Below, piece after piece: positions 53,170 through 64,000 of a stretch of 64,000 nucleotides of DNA. The notes beneath the pieces are model-generated. The model did not search any database. It was not told the DNA's origin and saw nothing but the letters and a program-made list of their open reading frames with translations. The position numbers were made by a program, and so were the translations under genes. The stretch is from Jiangella aurantiaca. Its GTDB lineage: Bacteria; Actinomycetota; Actinomycetes; Jiangellales; Jiangellaceae. Within the stretch, counting starts at the first letter, position 1; each line of letters opens with the position of its first letter. Where the stretch lies: positions 1 through 64,000 of the forward strand of contig NZ_SMLB01000012.1 of the NCBI RefSeq assembly GCF_004349105.1. The letters are read 5' to 3'.

Positions 53170-54534
53170 TCACCTCCTGACGTCGTGGACGGGCGCGTCG
53201 CCGGCCGGTCGGCCGAGGTGAGTGATGAACCAGTCGCCGGCCAGCCGGGCGACGTCGTCGAGTGCGCCGGGTTCTTCGAACAGGTGGGTGGCGCCGGGCA
53301 CGATCGCGATTTCGCGGACGGTGCGCATCGCCAGCAGGGCGTCCTGGTTGAGGCCGATGACCGCCTCGTCACGGCCGCCGACGATCAGCAGCGTGGGAGC
53401 GTCGACGTCGGCCAGCGCGTCGCCGGCCAGATCGGGCCGCCCGCCGCGGGAGACGACGGCGCGGACGCGACCACTGGACGCGGCCGCGGCGACCAGCGCC
53501 GCAGCGGCGCCGGTGCTGGCACCGAAGTAGGCCAGGGGGAGGCCGGCGGTCGACGGTTCCGCCGCCAGCCAGCGGCTGGCCAGTTCCAGCCGCAGGGACA
53601 GCAGACCGATGTCGAACCGGTGCCGTCCGGTGGCGAGGTCCTCGCGCTCCTCGTCTTGCGTGAGGAGGTCGGTGAGCATGGTCGCCAGTCCGCGTCGCTG
53701 GAGGGCCCGGGCGACCTGGCGGTTGCGGGGGCTGTGCCGGCTGCTGCCGCTTCCGTGGGCGAAGAGCACGACGCCGCGTGCCGATGCGGGCACGGTGAGG
53801 GCGGCGTCGATGGTACCGCCGCCGGGGACGGCGACAGTGACCGGCCGCTCGCTCGCCGGGCTGTCGCCGGTGGTGGCCGACCTGTCCCTGGACGACGCGA
53901 GCAGATCGACGACCTCGTCGTCGGTGGTCTGGCTGAAGTCGTCGTAGTAGGCGCCGATCGAGAACAGGTCCTCCGGTGCGGCCGCGCAAACGACGTCGTC
54001 GGCGATCGCGGCCAGCCGCTCGGCGGAGTCGGGCGAGCAGACCGGCGTGGCAAGGAGGAGCCGGTGCGGCCGGAACCCGCGCAGCGAGCGCAGGGCCGCC
54101 TCGGCCGTGACGCCGGTGGCCAGGCCGTCGTCGACGAGGATCACGTCCCGCGCCTCGAGGTCGGGCAGTGGCGCGGCGCCGCGGTACCGGTCGACCCGGC
54201 GGGCGAGCTCGGCTCGTTCGTCGTCGACCAGGGCCTCTAGGTCGTCGGAGCCGAGGCCGAGGCGGTCGGCCGCGCTCGTCACGACGACCTCGTCGCTGCC
54301 CTCGGCGATGGCGCCGATGCCGAACTCCGGATGCGACGGCGCGCCGACCTTCCGGGCGACGAACACCTCCAGGGGAGCGTCCAGCGCGGCGGCGACCCGG
54401 GCGGCGACCGGCACGCCGCCGCGGGGGAGCGCCAGCACGATCGGGTCACGGAAGGTCAGCGCGCTCAGACGTTCACCGAGCCGGCGGCCGGCGTCGTCAC
54501 GATCGCGGAAGATCGGTGCGTCTCGAGTGCTCAT
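53170..54534 (-). CDS. Fusion of phosphoribosyltransferase and alpha/beta hydrolase (dienelactone-hydrolase-like)
   Basis: This 454-residue protein starts at the ATG at 54534. Residues 1-215 are a phosphoribosyltransferase-like domain with VLALPRGGVPVAARVAAALD and the PRPP loop DVILVDDGLATGVTAEAALR. Residues 235-445 are an alpha/beta hydrolase (VLFAHGSGSSRHSPRNRQVA, nucleophile FGASTGAAAAL, base His in GATHLFEEPG). Both halves have their key motifs. Such fusions occur in stress-type gene clusters; the substrate of either half is unknown. It precedes the 38-residue membrane protein and is divergent from DUF1876. Confidence 0.82.
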   Translation of the reverse strand: MSTRDAPIFRDRDDAGRRLGERLSALTFRDPIVLALPRGGVPVAARVAAALDAPLEVFVARKVGAPSHPEFGIGAIAEGSDEVVVTSAADRLGLGSDDLEALVDDERAELARRVDRYRGAAPLPDLEARDVILVDDGLATGVTAEAALRSLRGFRPHRLLLATPVCSPDSAERLAAIADDVVCAAAPEDLFSIGAYYDDFSQTTDDEVVDLLASSRDRSATTGDSPASERPVTVAVPGGGTIDAALTVPASARGVVLFAHGSGSSRHSPRNRQVARALQRRGLATMLTDLLTQDEEREDLATGRHRFDIGLLSLRLELASRWLAAEPSTAGLPLAYFGASTGAAAALVAAAASSGRVRAVVSRGGRPDLAGDALADVDAPTLLIVGGRDEAVIGLNQDALLAMRTVREIAIVPGATHLFEEPGALDDVARLAGDWFITHLGRPAGDAPVHDVRR

Positions 54535-54665
54535 TCGCGGTTCGTACCCGCACTGCCGTCGCTCCACGCACGTGGGTCCCGCTGGCTGGTCCGACGCCGT
54601 TTGGTCGATTCGGCCGCGGGTAAGCGGAGGCGAGTACCACCAGAGCCGATCGTGTGGGAGTCGTG

Positions 54666-54941
54666 ATGATGCAAGGACAGCACTGGACGGTCGAGGTCGT
54701 CATCGACGAACACCACGACGATCGCCTGACGCATGCCGAGGCGCGGCTGCAGGCGCCGCGGCGGCCCGCGATGGCGGGCGTCGGGCGGGCGCGGCGCAAC
54801 CCGGAAGACCCCGATGTTCCGCGAATCGGCGACGAGCTGGCCGTCGCACGGGCCCTGTCGGACCTCGCGCACCAGCTGCTCGAGGTGGCCGCCGGTGACA
54901 TCGAGATGGCCACCCGGGAGAAGGCGCGGCTGCAGCGCTGA
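54666..54941 (+). CDS. DUF1876 protein (dsRBD-like fold)
   Basis: This 91-residue protein starts at ATG 54666 or 54669, behind GTGGGAG. It has WTVEVVIDEHHDDRLTHAEA, GVGRARRNPEDPDVPRIGDE and LAVARALSDLAHQLLEVAAG, the full DUF1876 pattern. The family is small, actinomycete-specific and has a double-stranded-RNA-binding-like fold without proven function. It is a single gene diverging from the fusion protein. Confidence 0.85.
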   Translation: MMQGQHWTVEVVIDEHHDDRLTHAEARLQAPRRPAMAGVGRARRNPEDPDVPRIGDELAVARALSDLAHQLLEVAAGDIEMATREKARLQR

Positions 54942-54971
54942 CGATCGATCGTCGGGCCGGGTGCCGCTGCC

Positions 54972-55685
54972 TCAGCGTTCGTCGTCGCGGCGGTCGGGGA
55001 GCGCGGTGAACGTCCCGAGGTCGAGGACGTCGACCTCGCCGAGTGCATGGTCGAGCGACGTCGGTGCCGGTGGCGACGGGTCCCGCCCGCGGAACACGTC
55101 GCTCAGCCGTGACCGGAGGGTCCGGTGCTGTGGCCGGACGCGTTCCCGGCGCGCGGCGGCCGCGGTCGCGGTGATCTGAGTGACCAGCTCGGCTCCACCG
55201 TAGGCCCTGGCGACCAGCAACGCGGCTTGGAACGCGGCCGGGCCTCCGGAGCAGGTGATGACCGAGCCGTCGACGACCATTCGCTCGTGCGACGGGTGCG
55301 CTCCGTAGTGTTCGAGGAGCGGGCCGGCCAGCCAGTGGGTCGCCGCGGTGGCGTCGTCGAGCAGGCCGGCCGCGGCCAGCAACGCGGTGCCCGTCGAGCT
55401 CGCGAGCAGCCAGCGCGGTGACACGCGGCGCAGCCAGGCGGCGAGCTCAGGGTGCCGGTCGGTCCCGACGCCGCCGGGCACGGCGACGATCTCGGGCGCG
55501 TTGATCTCGTCGATGGTGGCCTCGACGACCTGGAACCCGCCCGGGCCCGGCACCTGCCCGAGCGCGGTGCCGACGACCACGGTGCGGAAGTCGGGGATCT
55601 GGGACAGCACGAACCGGAAGATCGCAGCCTCGTCGGTGGAGACCCCCCGATAGGCGACGATCGCGGTCGTCGAGCTGGCATCCAT
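54972..55685 (-). CDS. DJ-1/PfpI-family protein with Ser in place of the nucleophilic Cys
   Basis: This 237-residue protein has the DJ-1/PfpI fold (TAIVAYRGVSTDEAAIF; IVAVPGGVGTD) and the elbow region LLASSTGTALLAAAGLLDD. Homologues read CTGA at the elbow; here the Cys is Ser, so thiol chemistry is lost. WLAGPLLEHYGA and VVDGSVITCSGGPAAFQAAL match the N-terminal ligand domain of GlxA-type AraC regulators, but there is no HTH. The last 60 residues are disordered. Probably a sensor or binding protein. Confidence 0.78.
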   Translation of the reverse strand: MDASSTTAIVAYRGVSTDEAAIFRFVLSQIPDFRTVVVGTALGQVPGPGGFQVVEATIDEINAPEIVAVPGGVGTDRHPELAAWLRRVSPRWLLASSTGTALLAAAGLLDDATAATHWLAGPLLEHYGAHPSHERMVVDGSVITCSGGPAAFQAALLVARAYGGAELVTQITATAAAARRERVRPQHRTLRSRLSDVFRGRDPSPPAPTSLDHALGEVDVLDLGTFTALPDRRDDER

Positions 55686-55766
55686 GACAACTCCTCGTCG
55701 CCACCCATCATAGGAGCGGCGGATCCCGATCGGGCCGGTGAGCCGGGTGCCAGGCCACGAAGGCCG

Positions 55767-56588
55767 CTAGCCGTTACCACCGTGGGCGGCGGCGCGCTGC
55801 TGGATCAGCTGAGCCACGACACGCTCGGACAGCTCCAGGCCGCCCGTCGAGGTCTCGAGCGGGGGCTGCTGACGGTCGTCGCCGTGGACTTCGCGGTGCA
55901 GGCGCTCCATGTCCTCGTCCAGCTTGGCCGCCGTGGTCGCGGCCTCGCCCAGGTTGGCCAGGAGCGCGTCGGGCACGTGCTTGTCGTACTTGTAATAGAT
56001 CTTGTGTTCCAGGCTGGCCCAGAAGTCCATCGCGATGGTGCGGAACTGCACCTCGACCGGCACCGGCGTCGGCCCGTCGGAGAGGAACACCGGCACCTGG
56101 ACGATCGCGTGCAGGCTCCGGTAGCCGTTGGGCTTGGGATGGCGGATGTAGTCCTTCACCGCCACCACGTCGATGTCGCGCTGGCCGGTCAGCAGATCGA
56201 AGACCCGGTAGGCGTCGGAGACGAACGAGCAGGTGACCCGGACGCCCGCGATGTCGGTGATCTGCTCACGGATGCGCTCGAACGTCGGCTCGCACCCCTT
56301 GCGCCGCACCTTCTCGAGCACGCTCTCCGGCGTCTTCAGCCGCGCTGAGACGTGCTCGATCGGGTTGTAGACGTGGACGGTGCGGAACTCCTCCTGCAGG
56401 ATCCGCACCTTCGTGGTGATCTCGTCCATGCCGAACTTGTACGAGAGCATGAACCGCGAGAACTCGTCGCGCAGCTGCCGGAACTCGGCCAGGAACTCGG
56501 GGATCTCGCCTGCCGCCAGGACGTCGGGATCGTCGTCGGCACTCACCTGCGCGTGTTCGTCCATCGTTGTCGATCGTATGTGAGCCAC
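55767..56588 (-). CDS. Small alarmone synthetase ((p)ppGpp synthetase, RelP/RelQ type)
   Basis: This 273-residue protein has the RelA/SpoT synthetase domain (about 75-200): SARLKTPESVLEKVRRKG, DIAGVRVTCSFVSDAYRVFD, KDYIRHPKPNGYRSLHAIVQ and VEVQFRTIAMDFWASLEHK. The HD hydrolase, TGS and ACT domains of long Rel proteins are absent, which makes it a stand-alone synthetase that transfers pyrophosphate from ATP to GDP or GTP. GTG 56588 is taken as start; the ATG at 56564 is an alternative, and neither has good ribosome spacing. It probably serves stress signalling. Confidence 0.87.
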   Translation of the reverse strand: MAHIRSTTMDEHAQVSADDDPDVLAAGEIPEFLAEFRQLRDEFSRFMLSYKFGMDEITTKVRILQEEFRTVHVYNPIEHVSARLKTPESVLEKVRRKGCEPTFERIREQITDIAGVRVTCSFVSDAYRVFDLLTGQRDIDVVAVKDYIRHPKPNGYRSLHAIVQVPVFLSDGPTPVPVEVQFRTIAMDFWASLEHKIYYKYDKHVPDALLANLGEAATTAAKLDEDMERLHREVHGDDRQQPPLETSTGGLELSERVVAQLIQQRAAAHGGNG

Positions 56589-56701
56589 TCTCCCTAGGTG
56601 TTCTCCTGCTTCACCAGGAGTGCATGCCTGGTACAGCGGGAGAACGCCTCATGATGTCGACGCTCGTGGAGCCTCACCGCTCCGAGCGGCAACGGCGCAC
56701 G

Positions 56702-57775
56702 CTAGCTGACGATGGCGTCGGCCAGTTCGCGGACGGTGTCGCGGGCGGTGCGTGCGGCGCCGACGAGGGTGGCCGACGCGGGTCCGGTCCAATCGCCGTA
56801 GCCGACCAGGTACAGGCCGGGGACGTCCGCCGAGCGGGTGCCGGCCGCGCCCGTCGTGGCGATGCGGCCGCGGAGTCCCAGCGGTTCGAGGTGGTCGAGT
56901 GCCGGCCGGAAGCCGGTGCACCAGACGACGGCGTCCACGTCGGTGGGGCGCCCGTTCGGCCATTCGAGGCCGGTCGGGGTGAATGCCGACGGTGGAGGTT
57001 CGGCGACCAGGGAGCCGCGGTCCCGGGCCTCGCGCACGGGCGGCACCATGACGATGTCGCCGAGGCCGCGGATCCCGCTGCCCGGGTCGTCGACGCCGTC
57101 GCGGCGGGCGGCGAAGCGGCGCGAGGCCAGCTGGAACAGCACGCGCCCGTCGACGTCGTCGGGGAGGAACCGGGGTGGGCGCTGGGTGATCCAGAGGGTC
57201 TCGGCCACGGTGGTGAGTTCGGCGAGGATCTGCGCGCCGGAGTTCCCGCCGCCGACGACCACGACGCGCTGGCCCGCGAACGGCTCTGGTCCGTCGTAGT
57301 CGACGGTGTGCAGCTGGCGGCCGCGGAATGTGTCGCGGCCGGGGACGGCGGGCACGTGCGGCCGCGACCAGGTGCCGGTCGCACTGACCACGCCCCGTGA
57401 CGCCGCGCTACCGGCGTCGGTGTGCACCGCGAAGCGGCCGCCGGCGCCGAGGGACACCGACGACACGCGTATCGGTCGTACGACGGGCAGGTCGTAGCGC
57501 TTTTCGTACCGGGTGAGGTAGTCGACGACGTGCGCGGCATCGGGGAAGCGGTCGTCACCGGTCGGAGGCATCATCCAACCGGCGAGCGACGAGTACGACG
57601 CCGGCGAGAACAGCCGCAGCGACGGCCACATGTGCTGCCAGGCGCCGCCGGGTGCGGGCTGGTCGTCGAGGATCAGGAAGTCCACGCCGGCACGCCGCAG
57701 GTAGTAGCCGACGGCGAGCCCGGCCTGGCCGCCGCCGACCACGATGACGTCGGCGTCGCGGAGCTGAACCGTCAT
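56702..57775 (-). CDS. arsO: FAD-dependent monooxygenase, ArsO-like
   Basis: This 357-residue flavoprotein has the FAD fingerprint VIVVGGGQAGLAVGYYLR (about 10-27) and the NADPH fingerprint VVVVGGGNSGAQILAELT (about 170). GAWQHMWPSLRLFSP and the C-terminal GTRSADVPGLYLVGYGDWTG match the ArsO group found in arsenic operons of actinomycetes. It lies 16 bases downstream of arsC on the same strand, so an arsenic-related oxidation is inferred. A general FMO/thioredoxin-reductase-like monooxygenase is the alternative reading. Confidence 0.8.
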   Translation of the reverse strand: MTVQLRDADVIVVGGGQAGLAVGYYLRRAGVDFLILDDQPAPGGAWQHMWPSLRLFSPASYSSLAGWMMPPTGDDRFPDAAHVVDYLTRYEKRYDLPVVRPIRVSSVSLGAGGRFAVHTDAGSAASRGVVSATGTWSRPHVPAVPGRDTFRGRQLHTVDYDGPEPFAGQRVVVVGGGNSGAQILAELTTVAETLWITQRPPRFLPDDVDGRVLFQLASRRFAARRDGVDDPGSGIRGLGDIVMVPPVREARDRGSLVAEPPPSAFTPTGLEWPNGRPTDVDAVVWCTGFRPALDHLEPLGLRGRIATTGAAGTRSADVPGLYLVGYGDWTGPASATLVGAARTARDTVRELADAIVS

Positions 57776-57791
57776 GTCGCGCCCGACGGGG

Positions 57792-58202
57792 TCAGCGGGC
57801 GGTCGCTTTCAAATCGGCGATGAGGGCCTCGACGCGGCCGCGGATGTCGTCGCGGATGGGGCGGACGGCCTCGATGCCCTGGCCGGCCGGGTCGTCGAGC
57901 TCCCAGTCCTCGTACCGCTTGCCCGGATAGAACGGGCAGGCGTCGCCGCAGCCCATGGTGATGACGACGTCGGACTCCTGGACGGCCTGATCGGTGAGGA
58001 TCTTCGGCTGTTCCGCGGCGATGTCGATGCCGACCTCGGCCATGGCCTGGACGGCGACGGGGTTGACTTGGTCGGCGGGCGCGGACCCGGCCGAGCGGAC
58101 CTCGATGTCGCCGCTGGAGAGGTGGTGGAGGAATGCTGCTGCCATCTGGGAGCGGCCGGCGTTGTGGACGCAGACGAACAGCACGCTGGGCTTGTCGGTC
58201 AC
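57792..58202 (-). CDS. arsC: Arsenate reductase (LMW-phosphatase/thioredoxin-coupled type)
   Basis: This 136-residue protein starts at GTG 58202 (GGAG eight bases upstream, overlapping the upstream stop as GTGA). The catalytic loop VLFVCVHNAGRSQMAAA contains the CX5R motif (C-V-H-N-A-G-R). TMGCGDACPFYPGKRYEDWE supplies the later redox cysteines. This family reduces arsenate to arsenite using thioredoxin; a thioredoxin gene lies at 60794. It is followed by the ArsO-like gene. An arsenite exporter gene (acr3/arsB) is not in the window. Confidence 0.87.
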   Translation of the reverse strand: MTDKPSVLFVCVHNAGRSQMAAAFLHHLSSGDIEVRSAGSAPADQVNPVAVQAMAEVGIDIAAEQPKILTDQAVQESDVVITMGCGDACPFYPGKRYEDWELDDPAGQGIEAVRPIRDDIRGRVEALIADLKATAR

Positions 58203-58468
58203 CTGGACTCCGTGTCGATGAGATCGGCGGACAGCGCGTGGACGCGGCTGTCGAGATCGTCGTGGATCGCTGCCAGCCGGGCATCGTCGGCGCCATCGGG
58301 GTCGGCGACGTCCCAGTCCTCGTAGCGCTTGCCGGGACAGACCGGGCAGGCGTCGCCACACCCCATCGTAATGACGACGTCGGCCGCCGTGACGACGTCG
58401 TCCGTCAGCGGCTTCGGGAACGCGGTCGTGAGGTCGGCGCCGAGTTCCCGAAGTACGCGATCGTTGAT
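58199..58468 (-). pseudogene. Second ArsC-like gene lacking its catalytic N-terminus
   Basis: The frame reads INDRVLRELGADLTTAFPKP, then LTDDVVTAADVVITMGCGDA and CPVCPGKRYEDWDVADPDG, which aligns with residues about 48-136 of the intact ArsC next to it. The CX5R loop and first 45 residues are absent: upstream of about 58468 the frame reads unrelated text with no start codon. An internal ATG (in ITMGCGD) could give only a short peptide. Its stop overlaps the GTG of the intact arsC, a relic of tandem arsC genes. Confidence 0.68.
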
Positions 58469-58579
58469 GTGACTGAACCAAGGCCCGCGGCGGTGCTCTG
58501 TTACCGCTGACGGGATGATGTTCTGGGTCGTCGTGGCCGTTCTTCGCCGCCGAGCCCTCCCAGTGGGCAGGATGGATCC

Positions 58580-59692
58580 ATGGCCAACAGCCGCTTGCGC
58601 TTCCTGTCGCCCCGGCGGGGTGCCGCCGGCCCCGATGGTCCGGCCGGCGAGGTGCCCGAGGCGCCGGAGCGGGCGATGGATCCGCGCCCCGACGCCGCCG
58701 CTGTCGTGGACGTCGGTGCCAGCGTGGTCAACAGCGGGGTCTACCGTGACGGGCGCCGCACGGAGTCGCCGGCGACATTGGCCGAGGCGTTGCGGAGTCT
58801 GCCCGACGAGTCGAGCATGGCGTGGATCGGGCTGTACCGGCCCAGCGACGAGGAACTGCTGGCGGTGGCCGACCAGTTCGATCTGCACGAGCTGGCCGTC
58901 GAGGACGCGATCGTGGCGCATCAGCGACCCAAGCTGGAGCGCTACGGGGACACGCTGTTCGTGGTGCTGCGGGCGGCGCGGTACCTCGACGACGTCGAGC
59001 GGGTGGAGTTCGGCGAGGTGCACGTCTTCATCGGCCCGGGTTTCGTGCTCACCGTCCGGCACAGCGAGTCGCCGGACCTGGCCGCGGTCCGCCGTCGCAT
59101 GGAGGGCGATCCGGACCTCCTGGCGCTGGGCCCGGAGGCGGTGCTGTACGCCATCCTCGACGCCGTCGTCGACGGGTACGCGCCGGTGGTGGCCGGGCTG
59201 CAGAACGACATCGACGAGATCCAGGCGCAGGTCTTCGACGGCGATCCGAAGGTGTCGCGGCGCATCTACGAGCTCTCCCGCGAGGTGACCGGGTTCCAGC
59301 TGGCCACGCGTCCGCTGCTGGACATGCTCAAGGCCTTGGAGGCCGGCTTCACGACATACGCCACCAGCGAGGAGCTGCGCCGCTACCTCCGCGACGTCCG
59401 CGACCACGCGACCATCGTCGCCGAGCGCGTGGACAACTTCGAGGCGCTGCTCAGCAAGATCCTCACCGTCAACGCCACCCTCGTGACCCAGGCGCAGAAC
59501 GAGGAGCTCAAGAAGATCTCCGCATGGGCGGCGATCCTGTTCGCCCCGACGCTCATCGGCACCGTCTACGGCATGAACTTCGACCACATGCCGGAGCTGC
59601 ACTGGCTGCTCGGCTACCCGTTCGCCCTGACGTTGATGGCGCTGACCTGCGTGGTGCTGTATCTGTCGTTCAAGCGCCGCGGCTGGCTGTGA
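58580..59692 (+). CDS. corA: CorA-family magnesium/cobalt transporter
   Basis: This 370-residue protein has a large cytoplasmic N-terminal domain (ELAVEDAIVAHQRPKLERYG, typical of CorA), long helices (about 180-300), and two C-terminal membrane helices with the YGMNFDHMPEL signature that forms the selectivity loop. It works as a pentameric Mg2+ channel. It starts at ATG 58580 and diverges from the arsC region. The first 45 residues are a low-complexity extension. A large palindrome follows its stop. Confidence 0.9.
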   Translation: MANSRLRFLSPRRGAAGPDGPAGEVPEAPERAMDPRPDAAAVVDVGASVVNSGVYRDGRRTESPATLAEALRSLPDESSMAWIGLYRPSDEELLAVADQFDLHELAVEDAIVAHQRPKLERYGDTLFVVLRAARYLDDVERVEFGEVHVFIGPGFVLTVRHSESPDLAAVRRRMEGDPDLLALGPEAVLYAILDAVVDGYAPVVAGLQNDIDEIQAQVFDGDPKVSRRIYELSREVTGFQLATRPLLDMLKALEAGFTTYATSEELRRYLRDVRDHATIVAERVDNFEALLSKILTVNATLVTQAQNEELKKISAWAAILFAPTLIGTVYGMNFDHMPELHWLLGYPFALTLMALTCVVLYLSFKRRGWL

Positions 59693-59761
59693 CGGTACCG
59701 AGGGCGACGACGGCAATGGCGGTGACCTGCGGCCACTCGGCGCCCTGGCGCCCCGCAGCCT

Positions 59762-59824
59762 CGTTGATCATGGAGAAGTCCCCCTTTGGCGGCGCTGGAA
59801 AGGGGCGCTTCTCCATGATCAACG
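59762..59824. repeat. Large near-perfect palindrome between corA and arsR
   Basis: The outer arms (17 bp, starting CGTTGATCATGGAGAAG) are perfectly complementary, and an inner CCCC-TTT/AAA-GGGG stem adds 7 bp with a two-base bulge, around an 11-base loop. The 63-bp structure ends one base before the arsR stop and 69 bases after corA. It can serve as a bidirectional terminator, but the TGATCATGGAG core is longer than needed and looks like a dispersed intergenic repeat unit. Copies elsewhere cannot be tested here. Confidence 0.7.
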
Positions 59825-60193
59825 TTATGCGAGTGTGAGGGCGTCGCGGATGGCGGCGAGCCGCTCGGGCACCACGCGGTAGTAGACCCAGGTGCCACGC
59901 CGGTCGCCGATGATCAGGCCGGCGTCGCGCAGCAGCTTCAGGTGGTGACTCGCGGTCGCAGCGGTCTTGCCGATCGCGTCGGCCATGTCGCAGGCGCAGA
60001 CCTCATCGGCATTGAGCAGCATCGACAGGATCTTCACCCGGGCCGGGTCGGCCAGCGCCTTGAACATGCCGGCCAGCGAGGCCGCGTCGTCGTCGGCCAT
60101 CGCTGCCGACGGGGCGCAGCAGATGGTCAGCACCGGCAGCTGTCGCGCGGAGGCGGGGGCGGGTGCCTCGAGGCTGGTCGTCACAGTGGTCAT
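59825..60193 (-). CDS. ArsR-family arsenite-responsive repressor
   Basis: This 122-residue regulator has a winged-HTH core (LAGMFKALADPARVKILSML; KTAATASHHLKLLRDAGLI). The metal motif EVCACDMAD at the start of the recognition-helix region corresponds to the ELCVCDL As(III)-binding site of ArsR. A further Cys pair lies in the N-terminal extension (LTICCAPS). It is expected to repress its own promoter and the divergent small-ORF operon at 60302. Cd/Pb sensing is a less likely alternative. Confidence 0.88.
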   Translation of the reverse strand: MTTVTTSLEAPAPASARQLPVLTICCAPSAAMADDDAASLAGMFKALADPARVKILSMLLNADEVCACDMADAIGKTAATASHHLKLLRDAGLIIGDRRGTWVYYRVVPERLAAIRDALTLA

Positions 60194-60228
60194 GATGTCT
60201 CCAGCTTAGCCGCGGAAGCGAGCCGATT

Positions 60229-60279
60229 CGAAGATCTTCGTAACACTGCTTTGAGATTCGTCGAATCAGTGATTAGATG
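60229..60279 (+). promoter_or_regulatory. ArsR-type operators and promoter for the small Cys-pair operon
   Basis: Two dyads occur: CGAAGATCTTCG (60229-60240, perfect 12-bp palindrome) and GATTCG-T-CGAATC (60255-60267). The second lies inside a good promoter: -35 TTGAGA (60251-60256), 17-bp spacer, -10 TAGATG (60274-60279). A repressor bound there would block RNA polymerase. The promoter points to the genes at 60302 and 60545; the first palindrome sits in the leader of arsR, 36 bp before its start. Regulation is inferred from layout. Confidence 0.6.
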
Positions 60280-60301
60280 AACGTCGAAACAAGGAGGCGC
60301 C

Positions 60302-60496
60302 ATGGACCCGTACCTGCCCGAAACAATCGCGACCGAACGCCGGCGCGACCTCATCGCCGAAGCGGCCCGCCGGCGGCTGGTCGCGATCGCCACCTGCTGC
60401 CGCCGCAGCGGCGTCGCGCGCACCGTCGGCCGCCTGCGCGGTGCCTGGACCGCGCTCGCCACCAGCAACGACAGCAGGTGCTGCACGACGGCTTGA
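60302..60496 (+). CDS. Small basic protein with two vicinal Cys pairs (64 aa)
   Basis: AAGGAGG lies five bases before the ATG at 60302 and the gene is 23 bases downstream of the -10 box. The protein has a helical, arginine-rich N-terminal half (RRRDLIAEAARRRLVAIA), then a CC pair (TCCRRSG, Cys32-33), and a C-terminal CC pair (SRCCTTA, Cys60-61). No known family is recognised. Vicinal cysteines bind As(III) well, and the ArsR-type promoter suggests a role in arsenic sensing, storage or transfer. Confidence 0.65.
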   Translation: MDPYLPETIATERRRDLIAEAARRRLVAIATCCRRSGVARTVGRLRGAWTALATSNDSRCCTTA

Positions 60497-60544
60497 GCGC
60501 GGCCGCTGACCTGTCGATGACCACGGCGAGAGGAGGTGGCGACG

Positions 60545-60598
60545 ATGGACTGCTGCGACGACCTGATCACGGACTGCTGCGACACCGGGTGCTGCTGA
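60545..60598 (+). CDS. 17-residue peptide with three vicinal Cys pairs
   Basis: The frame encodes MDCCDDLITDCCDTGCC and stops at TGA 60596-60598. AGGAGG lies eight bases before the ATG, one of the strongest ribosome sites in the window, and the gene follows the 64-residue gene by 48 bases in the same direction and the same frame. Six of 17 residues are cysteines, all in CC pairs, and four are Asp, giving a compact thiol ligand. It lies in an ArsR-controlled operon, so an As(III)- or soft-metal-binding peptide is inferred. It is too short for standard gene finding. Confidence 0.65.
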   Translation: MDCCDDLITDCCDTGCC

Positions 60599-60793
60599 CG
60601 GCACCGACGCTGCGGGGCGGCGCCGGCATCGAGCCGGTGCCGCTTCGCTGCCGCCGCCTCTATCGAGAAGTGCGGACTCCCCGGCCGCCGCTAGCGTCAC
60701 GGCTATCGCCAAGGTCGCCGGCGTGCCCGCGGACGCCGGGTCCTTCACCGACCCTGAGAGGTTCGACTGGGAGGCCGCAGGGCAGTGACCGGG

Positions 60794-61153
60794 CTACTGC
60801 TCCTTCTTGGCGGCGGCCAGGGCCGCGTCGACGTCGAGGGCGGTGACGGCGTCGATGACCTGGTCGAGCGCGGCCGCCGGCAGCGCGCCGGGCTGAGCGA
60901 AGACGAGGTGGCCCTTCTTGAAGGCCATCAGGGTCGGGATCGACGTGATCTGCGCCCACGCCGCCAGTTCCTGCTCCGCCTCGGTGTCGACCTTGCCGAA
61001 GACGATCTCCGGGTGCTGCTCCGCGGCCCGCTCGTAGACGGGGGCGAACATGCGGCACGGTCCACACCAGTCGGCCCAGAAGTCGACCAGCACGATCTCG
61101 TTGTCGTCCACGGTCTGTGCGAAGGTCTGGCTGGTCAGTGCGGTGGTGGTCAT
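60794..61153 (-). CDS. trxA: Thioredoxin
   Basis: This 119-residue protein has the active site FWADWCGPCRM and the conserved cis-Pro loop (SIPTLMAFKKG). It is 10-12 residues longer than standard thioredoxin because of an Ala/Lys-rich C-terminal tail. It starts at the ATG at 61153, overlapping the stop of the epimerase gene by four bases, so the two are translationally coupled, an unusual pairing. It could supply electrons to the ArsC at 57792. Confidence 0.9.
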   Translation of the reverse strand: MTTTALTSQTFAQTVDDNEIVLVDFWADWCGPCRMFAPVYERAAEQHPEIVFGKVDTEAEQELAAWAQITSIPTLMAFKKGHLVFAQPGALPAAALDQVIDAVTALDVDAALAAAKKEQ

Positions 61154-62226
61154 GAAGGTGCAACCCCCTGGGGGGACGTCCGCATTCCCGCCGCCCGGAG
61201 CGGGGCGTGGGCGAACTCGGCCATGCCGGCGGCGAAGGGGACGCGCGCTTCGAAGCCGAGTGCCGCGGCGGCACGGCGCGGGGAGGCGACGACGTGGCGG
61301 ACGTCGCCGAGGCGGTACTCGCCGGTGACGACGGGTGGCGGCGCGACCGGCCCGAACGCCGCGCACAGGGCGGCCGCCATCTCCAGGATCGTGTGCGGCT
61401 CGCCGCTGGCGACGTTGAGCGCCCCGCTCCACCCGGACCCGAGGGCCAGGACGTTGGCCCGGGCGACATCGCCGACGTGGACGAAGTCGCGCCGCTGACC
61501 GCCGTCCTCGAAGACGCGGGGTGCGGCGCCGCGGGCCAGCGCGCTGCGGAAGATGCTGGCCACGCCCGCGTAGGGGGTGTCGCGGGGCATCCGCGGCCCG
61601 TACACGTTGTGGTAGCGCAGCGCACAGACGGCGGCGCCGGTCTCGCGGCCGTACGCGAAGGCCAGGTGCTCGGTGAGCAGCTTCGTCGCGGCGTAGACGT
61701 TGCGCGGATCGGGTGCCGCCTCCTCGTCGACGTGGTCCCAGGACAGCTGCGCACCGCAGTGCGGGCAGGACGGCTCGAACTGCCCGGCATCGAGGTCGGC
61801 GACCGACCGCGGGCCGGGTGCGACGGTGCCGTGTCGCGTGCAGCGGTACCGGCCCTCGCCGTAGACGACCATCGACGACGCGACCACGAGGCGGCCGGTG
61901 AAGCGGCGCCGCCACAGGGCGCGCAGCAGTACGGCGGTGCCCAGGTCGTTGTCGGACACGTAGTCGGCGACGTCGTCGAGGTCGACGCCCAGGCCGACCC
62001 GGGCGGCCTGGTGGCAGACGGCGTCGACGTCGCCGACGGCGTGCGCGACGGTGTCGGCGTCGCGCAGGTCGGCCACGCGCAGGTCGACCCCGTCCGGCAG
62101 ATGCGCGGGCGGCTCGGCATGCGCGGCCAGGGAGTCGAGCACGACCACCTCGGCGCCCTGCTCGGCCAGCTGGTCGACGACGTGCCCGCCGATGAAGCCG
62201 GCGCCGCCGGTGACGAGGACTCGCAT
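61150..62226 (-). CDS. NAD-dependent sugar-nucleotide epimerase/dehydratase with zinc-ribbon-like insert
   Basis: This 358-residue extended SDR has the Rossmann motif VTGGAGFIGGHVVDQL, catalytic Ser region VVASSMVVYGEG and YxxxK in VYAATK. About residues 130-175 carry an insertion with a possible metal site (RCTRHG and SCPHCGAQ) not usual in UDP-glucose 4-epimerases. It probably modifies an NDP-sugar for cell-surface glycans. The gene upstream encodes a glycosyltransferase-like membrane protein and trxA follows. Confidence 0.83.
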   Translation of the reverse strand: MRVLVTGGAGFIGGHVVDQLAEQGAEVVVLDSLAAHAEPPAHLPDGVDLRVADLRDADTVAHAVGDVDAVCHQAARVGLGVDLDDVADYVSDNDLGTAVLLRALWRRRFTGRLVVASSMVVYGEGRYRCTRHGTVAPGPRSVADLDAGQFEPSCPHCGAQLSWDHVDEEAAPDPRNVYAATKLLTEHLAFAYGRETGAAVCALRYHNVYGPRMPRDTPYAGVASIFRSALARGAAPRVFEDGGQRRDFVHVGDVARANVLALGSGWSGALNVASGEPHTILEMAAALCAAFGPVAPPPVVTGEYRLGDVRHVVASPRRAAAALGFEARVPFAAGMAEFAHAPLRAAGMRTSPQGVAPS

Positions 62227-62242
62227 CGCATCTCCTTCGTGT

Positions 62243-63562
62243 TCACCAGGGTGAGCGCAGCGCCGCCTGGAGGACGACGGCGACGGCGACCTGCAGCGCG
62301 AGCCATCGCCTGGCCCCACCGGCCGACGTCGCCAGCGCGCCGCCGGCCAGCAGCACCAGCGGCATGAATGGCTGCCAGATCCGCTCGGTCTCGGCAGACG
62401 ACAGCCCGGACAGGTCGGCGAGCAGCACCGCAGCCAGCCCCGAGCCGACGACGAGCCAGGCTCGCCGATCGCGCAGCCGGGCCAGCCCGGCCGCCGTCGC
62501 CGGGCCGACGGCCAGCGCGAAGACCGCCAGGTTGGCCAGCAGGAAGTACTCGTACGGACGGTCCGCGCCCACGCCGGCGTAGTACTGGACGCGGGTCGCG
62601 GCCAGCCCGTCGAGCCACCAGAACCCCCAGAGGAGCGGCAGCGCCACGACGACGGCGCCCGCCCCGGCCGCGACGGCCAGTACGGCCGGCCTGCGTCGCC
62701 ACAGCGCGACCGCAGCGATCGGCGCCGCGAGCAGCGCGACGCCGTAGGAGAACAGCAGCGCCAGCCCGAACACCGCGCCGCCGGCACCCGCCAGCGCCCA
62801 CCGCGATCGGCCGGCCCGGCCGGTCGCGATCACCACCAGCACCACACCGGTCAGCGCCAGCCCGCCGAAGACGACGTCCGCGTTGGTGTGCCAGACGGCC
62901 GCCGGTGCCAGCACGAGGAACGGCGCGGCCCGGCGGGCGGACCGCTCCGACACGACCTCGCGGGCGATCACCAGCGCCGCGACGGCCGCGGCGGCGACGC
63001 CCGCCATCGCGAGCGCCGTCTCCCACCCGGAACCGGACAACCCCGCGCGGGCCGACGCCCACAGCGCCAGCACCAGTCCCGGCGGGTGCGCCTGCAGATG
63101 GACCGGGACGGCGTCCTGGTGCTCGACGTACGTGCGCAGGAACGCCGCCGGACCGCCGCGCTCGTCGACCAGCCCGATGTGCCGGCCGTACGCCTGCCCG
63201 ATGTCGGCGAAACCGTCAACGCCGTCGACCGCGGCCAGCGCCAGGCTCCAGCCGATCGCCGTCGCCGCCACCGCGCCGAGCACCCGCCGCCACGGCCAGC
63301 GCGCCGCGAGCCCGGGCAGCACCAGCACGGCCGCCGCGCCTGCGGCGACCGGCGCGGCCAGCCGCCAGACCGGCGCGAGCTCCCAGCGGCCGTACAGCGG
63401 GATGGCGCCCAGATGCAGGTCGTCGGCGGGCAGGGCCAGGCCCCAGACCCGGGCGGTCACCAGCAGCAGGACCCATCCGGCCAGCACCCAGACGACGACC
63501 GTCCGGCGGCGCGGCGCCCTGGCCTGCACCGGCCGGGCCGCGAGCGCCGCGGACTCCGTCAC
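62243..63562 (-). CDS. Polytopic membrane protein, GT39/mannosyltransferase-like
   Basis: This 439-residue protein starts at GTG 63562, overlapping the upstream kinase stop as GTGA. It has about ten to twelve hydrophobic helices. A periplasmic-loop segment after helix 3-4 (FLRTYVEHQDAVPVHLQAHP, then PG) recalls the acidic, His-rich loop of C-type glycosyltransferases that use lipid-linked sugars. No exact family can be named. With the adjacent epimerase it suggests a small glycan module. Confidence 0.65.
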   Translation of the reverse strand: MTESAALAARPVQARAPRRRTVVVWVLAGWVLLLVTARVWGLALPADDLHLGAIPLYGRWELAPVWRLAAPVAAGAAAVLVLPGLAARWPWRRVLGAVAATAIGWSLALAAVDGVDGFADIGQAYGRHIGLVDERGGPAAFLRTYVEHQDAVPVHLQAHPPGLVLALWASARAGLSGSGWETALAMAGVAAAAVAALVIAREVVSERSARRAAPFLVLAPAAVWHTNADVVFGGLALTGVVLVVIATGRAGRSRWALAGAGGAVFGLALLFSYGVALLAAPIAAVALWRRRPAVLAVAAGAGAVVVALPLLWGFWWLDGLAATRVQYYAGVGADRPYEYFLLANLAVFALAVGPATAAGLARLRDRRAWLVVGSGLAAVLLADLSGLSSAETERIWQPFMPLVLLAGGALATSAGGARRWLALQVAVAVVLQAALRSPW

Positions 63563-64000
63563 GCCGGGAGCCGGATGGTGAATCGGCACCCGCGGTCGTG
63601 GTTGGCGACCTCGACGGAGCCGGCGTGCGCCTCGACCAGGCCGCGGGCGATGGCCAGTCCCAGCCCGCCGCCGCCGGCGTCGCGGCCGCGCGCGGTGTCG
63701 CCGCGGAAGGCGACGTCGAACACGCGGTCCAGGTCGGGTTCCGGGATACCGCCGCACTCGTCGATGACCTGCAGCACGGCGCCGTCGTGGTCGCGGCCGC
63801 ACCGGACGACGACGCGGCCGCCTGCGGGCGTGTGCCGGATGGCGTTGTCGAGCAGGTTGTTCAGGGCGCGGGAGAACTCGCGGGCCGACACCTCCGTAGC
63901 GGGCAGGTCGTCGAGCTCCTCGACCAGTTGCACGCCCTTGACCGAGGCGTGCGAGGCCGCACCGGCCAGCGACTCGGCGACCGCGTCGCCGATCGAGACC
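63559..64000 (-). CDS. Sensor histidine kinase, C-terminal part (cut by window edge)
   Basis: The visible 146 codons cover the HATPase domain: N box NNLLDNAIRHTPAGG, G1 IDECGGIP, F/G2 region DAGGGGLGLAIARGLVEAHAG, and the closing GCRFTIRLPA. The HisKA dimerisation helix lies beyond the window. The protein would autophosphorylate and signal to a response regulator, presumably encoded just outside. The stop overlaps the start of the glycosyltransferase-like gene. Confidence 0.87.
   Translation of the reverse strand, partial: VSIGDAVAESLAGAASHASVKGVQLVEELDDLPATEVSAREFSRALNNLLDNAIRHTPAGGRVVVRCGRDHDGAVLQVIDECGGIPEPDLDRVFDVAFRGDTARGRDAGGGGLGLAIARGLVEAHAGSVEVANHDRGCRFTIRLPA

Follow-up and report, generated by a model that had tools for sequence, protein, structure and literature searches.

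The 64-kb stretch of DNA analysed here, referred to below as the window, carries a micro-gene of 17 amino acids in which 6 of the 17 residues are cysteine and the rest is rich in acidic residues. Its coding nature and its linkage to arsenic resistance are well supported: the frame is conserved among relatives, and similar peptides of 12-23 residues are found in the arsenic-resistance operons of at least two further actinobacterial groups. Judged from its sequence and that of its counterparts, the micro-gene is real, most likely translated and, as far as our searches reach, undescribed. The best reading of its function, to which we give a probability of roughly 0.6, is that of an ArsR-controlled thiol peptide which would bind As(III) as a buffer or carrier, and these actinobacteria may thus possess a near-minimal arsenic trap or carrier made by the ribosome.

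The micro-gene and the divergent arsR

The features of the locus in the window are as follows.

59825 to 60193, minus strand: arsR, divergent regulator of 122 aa with ICC at residues 24-26 and EVCACD (Pfam HTH_5, E 1.1e-13)
60225 to 60267, no strand: inverted repeat GATTCGAAGA/TCGTCGAATC between arsR and ORF1, arms at 60225-60234 and 60258-60267
60261 to 60290, plus strand: TCGAATCAGTGATTAGATGAACGTCGAAAC block, putative operator or promoter region (alignment of the arsR-ORF1 regions of 14 copies)
60291 to 60297, plus strand: AAGGAGG, ribosome site of ORF1 (from the sequence)
60302 to 60496, plus strand: ORF1, 64 aa, divergent from arsR, with an internal and a C-terminal CC
60531 to 60536, plus strand: AGGAGG, ribosome site of the micro-gene, 8 bases ahead of the ATG at 60545
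60545 to 60598, plus strand: micro-gene, 17 aa, MDCCDDLITDCCDTGCC (translation, conservation, scan)
60612 to 60648, plus strand: G+C-rich hairpin after the stop codon, without T-run (-44.4 kcal/mol, z -3.65)

An earlier note on this DNA had called the frame at 60545-60598, and its translation is exactly as claimed, as are the strong ribosome site and its 8-base spacing to the ATG. The small cysteine-pair gene which that note placed just upstream is ORF1, separated from the micro-gene by a gap of 48 bases and carrying CC at residues 32-33 and 60-61. ORF1 precedes the micro-gene in all 14 copies found in Jiangellaceae, with the C-terminal CC in 14/14 and the internal CC in 12/14 (not in G015 and G006), and the 12 copies that share one length give a pN/pS of 0.46. 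No match to ORF1 was obtained in Pfam or NCBIfam, and a structure model of moderate confidence (mean pLDDT 70.6, pTM 0.35) predicts one long helix over residues 5-63. An Rfam search of positions 54000-64000 returned no family at gathering score.

The ArsR of the window scores 94 bits against the NCBIfam model HTH_metalloreg, above its 55-bit cutoff, and stays below the cutoff of the Rv2640c ArsR family. Its N-terminal CC and CACD are kept in all 14 divergent copies. In CgArsR, As(III) is bound via Cys15-Cys16 and Cys55, a type 3 site, according to PMC11868830; the neighbouring ArsR, with an N-terminal CC and further cysteines in CACD, is reminiscent of this site, the likeness being one of motif and not of residue alignment. 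Between arsR and ORF1 the earlier note had placed a promoter overlapping an inverted repeat. The repeat is present and is a probable ArsR operator, and it runs into a block (60261-60290) that is largely conserved among the 14 aligned copies around an invariant core, TCGAATCA. A strict sigma-70 scan, however, found no promoter match between the two genes, and the putative promoter is therefore a conservation-based assignment.

Two further observations concern the left side of the locus. A long inverted repeat at 59762-59824 (26-nt arms, 92% complementary, 11-nt spacer) lies between the convergent stops of corA and arsR and is possibly a bidirectional terminator. Farther left, the intact arsC (58202-57792) is overlapped at its start by a second ArsC-like frame (58199-58500, minus strand), which lacks the CVHNAGRS loop at the N-terminus and is probably a decayed tandem duplicate.

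Conservation and surroundings in Jiangellaceae

A DNA search with positions 60190-60620 as query, covering 60 genomes including the source genome, matched all 11 other Jiangella genomes (J. anatolica, J. endophytica and J. muralis among the loci with species names) and others besides. That the frame is a gene, as had been proposed, is borne out in these relatives: a lost frame or ribosome site among them, which the earlier note had named as refuting evidence, was looked for, and the outcome did not go against the proposal. An intact frame was found in 14 copies from 13 of the 22 family genomes (G000-G021), every copy arranged as arsR, ORF1 and peptide; these are 11 of the 12 Jiangella genomes, one of them with two copies, and two of the five genomes of genus g5. 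A purine-rich ribosome site stands ahead of the micro-gene in every copy. Outside the window, 14 matching places span the frame; in 13 of them homology of the arsR-ORF1-peptide DNA stops at the stop codon or no more than 5 bases from it, the exception (G007) continuing for 20 bases past it. With the 18-codon copy and its extra in-frame codon left out, the 13 remaining copies, all of one length, have a mean pairwise ungapped identity of 0.87 over the 54-nt frame vs 0.32 in the following 54 nt. Differences per site reach 0.17 at third codon positions, compared to 0.10 and 0.12 at the other two, and the pN/pS of 0.36 points to purifying selection. One cysteine of the middle pair has been lost in three of the 14 copies (G003, G021 and one of G005).

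The micro-gene is also tied to the neighbouring ArsR. The genomes with a member of a close ArsR subfamily (E <= 4e-54) and those with an intact peptide are the same 13, and the subfamily is missing from the 9 other family genomes. The next best ArsR match among 393 genomes lies at about 1e-30, and the co-occurrence gives a Fisher P of 2e-6, a value that ignores shared ancestry. The sole Jiangella genome without a match to this ArsR, G002, holds only a decayed remnant of the micro-gene, which begins with GTG and has two of the six cysteines replaced. The sequence comparison thus supports purifying selection on the micro-gene and its link to an ArsR that has CC and CxC motifs. Inspected by eye, the G002 locus (L014:1440-1561) has the end of corA near the remnant, with arsR and ORF1 missing between them, resembling a deletion scar.

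The constant unit in Jiangellaceae consists of arsR, divergent from ORF1, and then the peptide; no downstream gene is common to the 14 copies. A transporter gene set is shared downstream by G004 and G010 and partly by G009, the other copies have different genes there, and in the window a thioredoxin gene on the minus strand comes next after the micro-gene. Genes for an ArsO-like flavoprotein and an ArsC-like protein lie left of arsR in many Jiangella loci; around the unit in the two g5 loci no arsenic genes except arsR were recognised. These neighbourhoods were called with a heuristic of our own, which missed ORF1 in several loci where other searches found it. Behind the stop codon the hairpin z is negative in 14/14 copies, mostly modestly (-0.18 to -4.38, mean about -1.4), and an upstream control ranges from +0.65 to -1.89 with a mean of about -0.4. 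On these values a terminator behind the stop is likely. The hairpin at 60612-60648 is a possible terminator; a scan for T-run terminators found none after the micro-gene. Given the lack of a constant downstream gene and the hairpin behind the stop codon, the micro-gene probably closes a transcript of two genes in most copies.

As a separate observation, a second ArsR-like regulator, mostly of 110-118 aa and ending in VCC, is found near the unit in 8 of the 12 Jiangella copies (L056, L058, L059, L060, L063, L066, L068 and L069); it is absent among the genes called beside the micro-gene in the window.

Cysteine-pair peptides in other actinobacterial arsenic operons

Loci were scanned for frames of at most 30 aa with a ribosome-like site, at least two CC pairs, at least two acidic residues and a CC at or near the end. 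First-order Markov resampled sequence gave no match in 5,348,370 bases. The window and 14 longer loci (288,203 bases together) each gave exactly one match, the known peptide, which is hence the single match in 64 kb, and the Cys-pair frame is not a product of chance. A scan of 200 loci (953,714 bases, some overlapping), mostly neighbourhoods of arsR or flavoprotein genes, gave 11 rows, namely eight distinct ars peptides (those of G101 and G023 each appearing twice) and one unconvincing row, L263; the only lineage it added was the Arthrobacter-type one. In 77 further arsR loci (L083-L159, a few of them overlapping) two rows were obtained, the G101 peptide and noise in L136.

The earlier note had proposed looking near arsR or arsC for frames with CC-x6-CC-x3-CC spacing. 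Similar frames do occur in other actinobacterial ars operons, but that spacing does not define them: 10 of the 14 Jiangellaceae copies show it, but the other lineages all lack it and have CC-x4-CC-x6-CC, CC-x4-CC-x5-CC, CC-x4-CC-x3-CC and further arrangements. Taken together, 37 peptides were collected: 14 from Jiangellaceae, two from family f9 (one of them the G029 tail described below) and 21 of Arthrobacter type. Three CC pairs are present in 32/37, and cysteines number 5-7 per peptide except in one 12-aa copy with four. The CC terminus common to all 37 is partly demanded by the scan. None of the 37 contains K, R, H, W, Y or F; K, R and H make up 12.7% of residues in neighbouring called frames. 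The conserved feature, as far as can be read from the sequences, is CC pairs with acidic residues, not a fixed spacing.

In family f9, G101 has an arsR divergent from MDDCCVDTECCDSGCC, which has its own ribosome site and is followed by a MIP aquaporin (Pfam HTH_5 and MIP). In G029, of a second genus of that family, an ars flavoprotein whose start lies off the contig runs in frame at its C-terminus into MEDCCDDLQGCETGCC. The Arthrobacter type is exemplified by MDTGCCTDTGCCDEDDLDCC. An Arthrobacter plasmid carries MDTGCCTDTGCC between trxB and the flavoprotein gene, and four more plasmids of Arthrobacter and Paenarthrobacter have versions of 17-20 aa in the same position. One of the plasmid copies has two CC pairs only. 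In G023 the order is arsR, aquaporin, peptide, flavoprotein, arsC and trxB. When 63 genomes from the genus of G023 were searched with a profile, 16 had a match at E <= 1, and 15 of these 16 matches are ribosome-site-led peptides of 18-23 aa with three CC pairs; counting G023, the peptide is present in at least 16/63 genomes, the counts being lower bounds because the profile missed the peptide-bearing G023. By a reading of called frames, at least one ars gene lies beside the peptide in 15/15 Arthrobacter-type loci and the flavoprotein gene follows next in 14/15; in L285, arsR, aquaporin and arsC precede the peptide and no ars gene was recognised after it.

The arsenic-operon linkage of Cys-pair peptides thus extends over three lineages, which may be related or convergent, homology not being demonstrable at such length. 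Their distribution is patchy, since searching 393 genomes of the class and 296 of the phylum with a profile that misses Arthrobacter-type peptides gave credible matches in two families only. Among weak profile-search rows read at the examined loci, all but the weakest rows of one search, none was peptide-like, and a tblastn search of plasmids with two peptides joined as query found nothing, a result that low-complexity filtering may explain. The PLSDB tables for the five plasmid records, which are incomplete, do not list the peptide. On pTC2 of Paenarthrobacter aurescens TC1 (L219:2542-4071), the flavoprotein is annotated as "putative Secreted protein" from a start farther upstream, and this long wrong-frame start overlaps the micro-gene out of frame.

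Proposed function, competing explanations and known systems

We infer the following sequence of events for the Jiangella unit. Arsenite would release ArsR, upon which ORF1 and the peptide would be co-expressed; the vicinal CC pairs of the peptide would coordinate As(III) with three thiolates per As, so that six cysteines could hold up to about two As per peptide; and the peptide would buffer As(III), carry it to the next arsenic protein, or both. Candidate recipients are an efflux channel or pump, the Cys-tailed flavoprotein and ArsR itself. The micro-metallothionein for arsenic or soft metals of the earlier note is supported in part, by the conserved micro-gene, its ribosome site, the tie to ArsR and the recurrence in ars operons; metal binding and a metallothionein function are putative, and the spacing is not its hallmark.

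An unlikely alternative is that the peptide buffers another soft metal (Zn, Cu, Cd) or serves as a general thiol-stress peptide, its ars context being incidental. CC pairs bind many soft metals by established chemistry, Zn, Cu, Cd and Hg included, and thioredoxin or thioredoxin reductase genes lie nearby. Moreover, ArsR-family regulators sense several metals, according to PMC4531530. Against this stand three separate arsenic contexts and the decay of the micro-gene in G002, the genome without the close ArsR. Arsenic is the most likely ligand, given that arsR, arsC, aquaporin and Cys-tailed flavoprotein contexts recur in three lineages.

It is quite unlikely, too, that the frame is a leader, in which ribosome stalling at the Cys codons would govern the downstream hairpin and gene while the peptide itself is inert. 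Mycobacterial polycysteine leader ORFs, which regulate a downstream gene, offer a likeness as short Cys-run ORFs in actinobacteria; the Jiangella peptide differs in having no constant downstream gene. The run of Cys codons, the strong ribosome site and the post-stop hairpin of many copies would suit stalling, as would the G101 frame, first after the promoter region and followed by the aquaporin, and the flavoprotein that comes next in nearly all Arthrobacter-type loci. A precedent, described in PMC4562236, is the internal hairpin that attenuates the ars operon of Bacillus CDB3. The peptide frame does not, however, appear to come first outside G101: ORF1 is ahead of it in Jiangellaceae and arsC or trxB in 15 loci. 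Only two or three of the 14 Jiangellaceae copies share the transporter set, the window's next gene faces the opposite way, L285 has no recognised ars gene downstream, and L293 and L296 are almost without a hairpin (-7.3 and -8.1 kcal/mol). Stalling, furthermore, needs neither kept acidic residues nor the absence of basic and aromatic ones. Attenuation is hence disfavoured by the variable downstream gene, the second place behind ORF1 and the conserved acidic composition.

A thiol-redox helper, whose Cys pairs would pass electrons in arsenate reduction by ArsC and thioredoxin reductase and bind no As(III), is improbable: the peptide adjoins arsC or trxB in Arthrobacter-type operons, but the arsR/ORF1/peptide unit has neither directly adjacent and the peptide has no CxxC motif. 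That the frame is untranslated, as a conserved DNA or RNA element or a chance frame, is very improbable in view of in-frame length changes with cysteines kept, the third-position excess with low pN/pS, the recurrence elsewhere and the empty scan of 5.3 Mb of resampled sequence.

The As(III)-binding peptide has partial parallels among known systems. Bacterial metallothioneins such as SmtA and MymT likewise have a very high Cys content, no aromatics (no W, Y or F in 37/37 peptides here) and a metal regulator as neighbour; the present peptide is much shorter and has CC pairs instead of CxC or CxxC. Pfam and NCBIfam, metallothionein models included, gave no match for three Arthrobacter-type relatives of 20-23 aa in scans with a lower limit of 20 aa, under which the 17-aa window peptide falls. 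A 2010 in silico survey reportedly covered actinobacterial metallothioneins. A search of the open-access literature, subscription journals being mostly outside its scope, found no such peptide. Phytochelatins are comparable as short, acidic, Cys-rich thiol peptides, by which analogy the present peptide could chelate As(III), and differ as enzymatically made gamma-Glu-Cys repeats, as opposed to a gene-encoded peptide with vicinal pairs. ArsD, which delivers to ArsA, is also an arsenic-operon product with vicinal Cys pairs (12-13, 112-113 and 119-120 in R773), as are the peptides, and makes them carrier candidates by likeness. According to PMC4562236, Cys12-Cys13-Cys18 of ArsD serve chaperone function and the two C-terminal vicinal pairs have a proposed regulatory role. 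ArsD is a folded protein of more than 100 residues, whereas a peptide of 17 aa lacks a folded domain with such a triad.

At about even odds, these peptides of 12-23 residues with CC pairs and acidic spacers form a hidden class of ribosome-made arsenic thioneins or carriers in actinobacterial arsenic operons, possibly matching, as an independent peptide, the cysteine tail that the arsenic flavoprotein carries. This class would have originated or spread in three families or more and been missed for lying below annotation length and having no trypsin site. If true, a long-studied resistance system would gain a new component, sensors and remediation a near-minimal gene-encoded As(III)-binding sequence, and a functional gene class would have been overlooked by gene callers and by trypsin-based proteomics (K and R being absent from 37/37). 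Whether a 17-residue ribosomal peptide can be a metallochaperone becomes a testable question.

The tail in question belongs to the ars FAD/NAD(P) oxidoreductases, which mostly end in LPETGVC...GGCC, that is, a Cys and a CC; no CC is found in the tails of L190, L195, L199, L208 and L274. Tail and peptide are alike in bearing CC in the same operons, and in G029 the tail itself reads ...MEDCCDDLQGCETGCC. They differ in that Jiangella and Arthrobacter-type genomes encode the peptide in a frame apart from the enzyme, behind a ribosome site of its own, and that the enzyme usually keeps its tail. A replacement of lost flavoprotein CC tails by the peptide was considered and rejected, as its presence does not track tail loss: the peptide-bearing rows all keep the flavoprotein CC except G023 (two loci), and three peptide-less rows are also without it. 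The source genome's own oxidoreductase copy (L254, G000:C6:131710-132972) lies on the same contig as the micro-gene, about 71 kb away.
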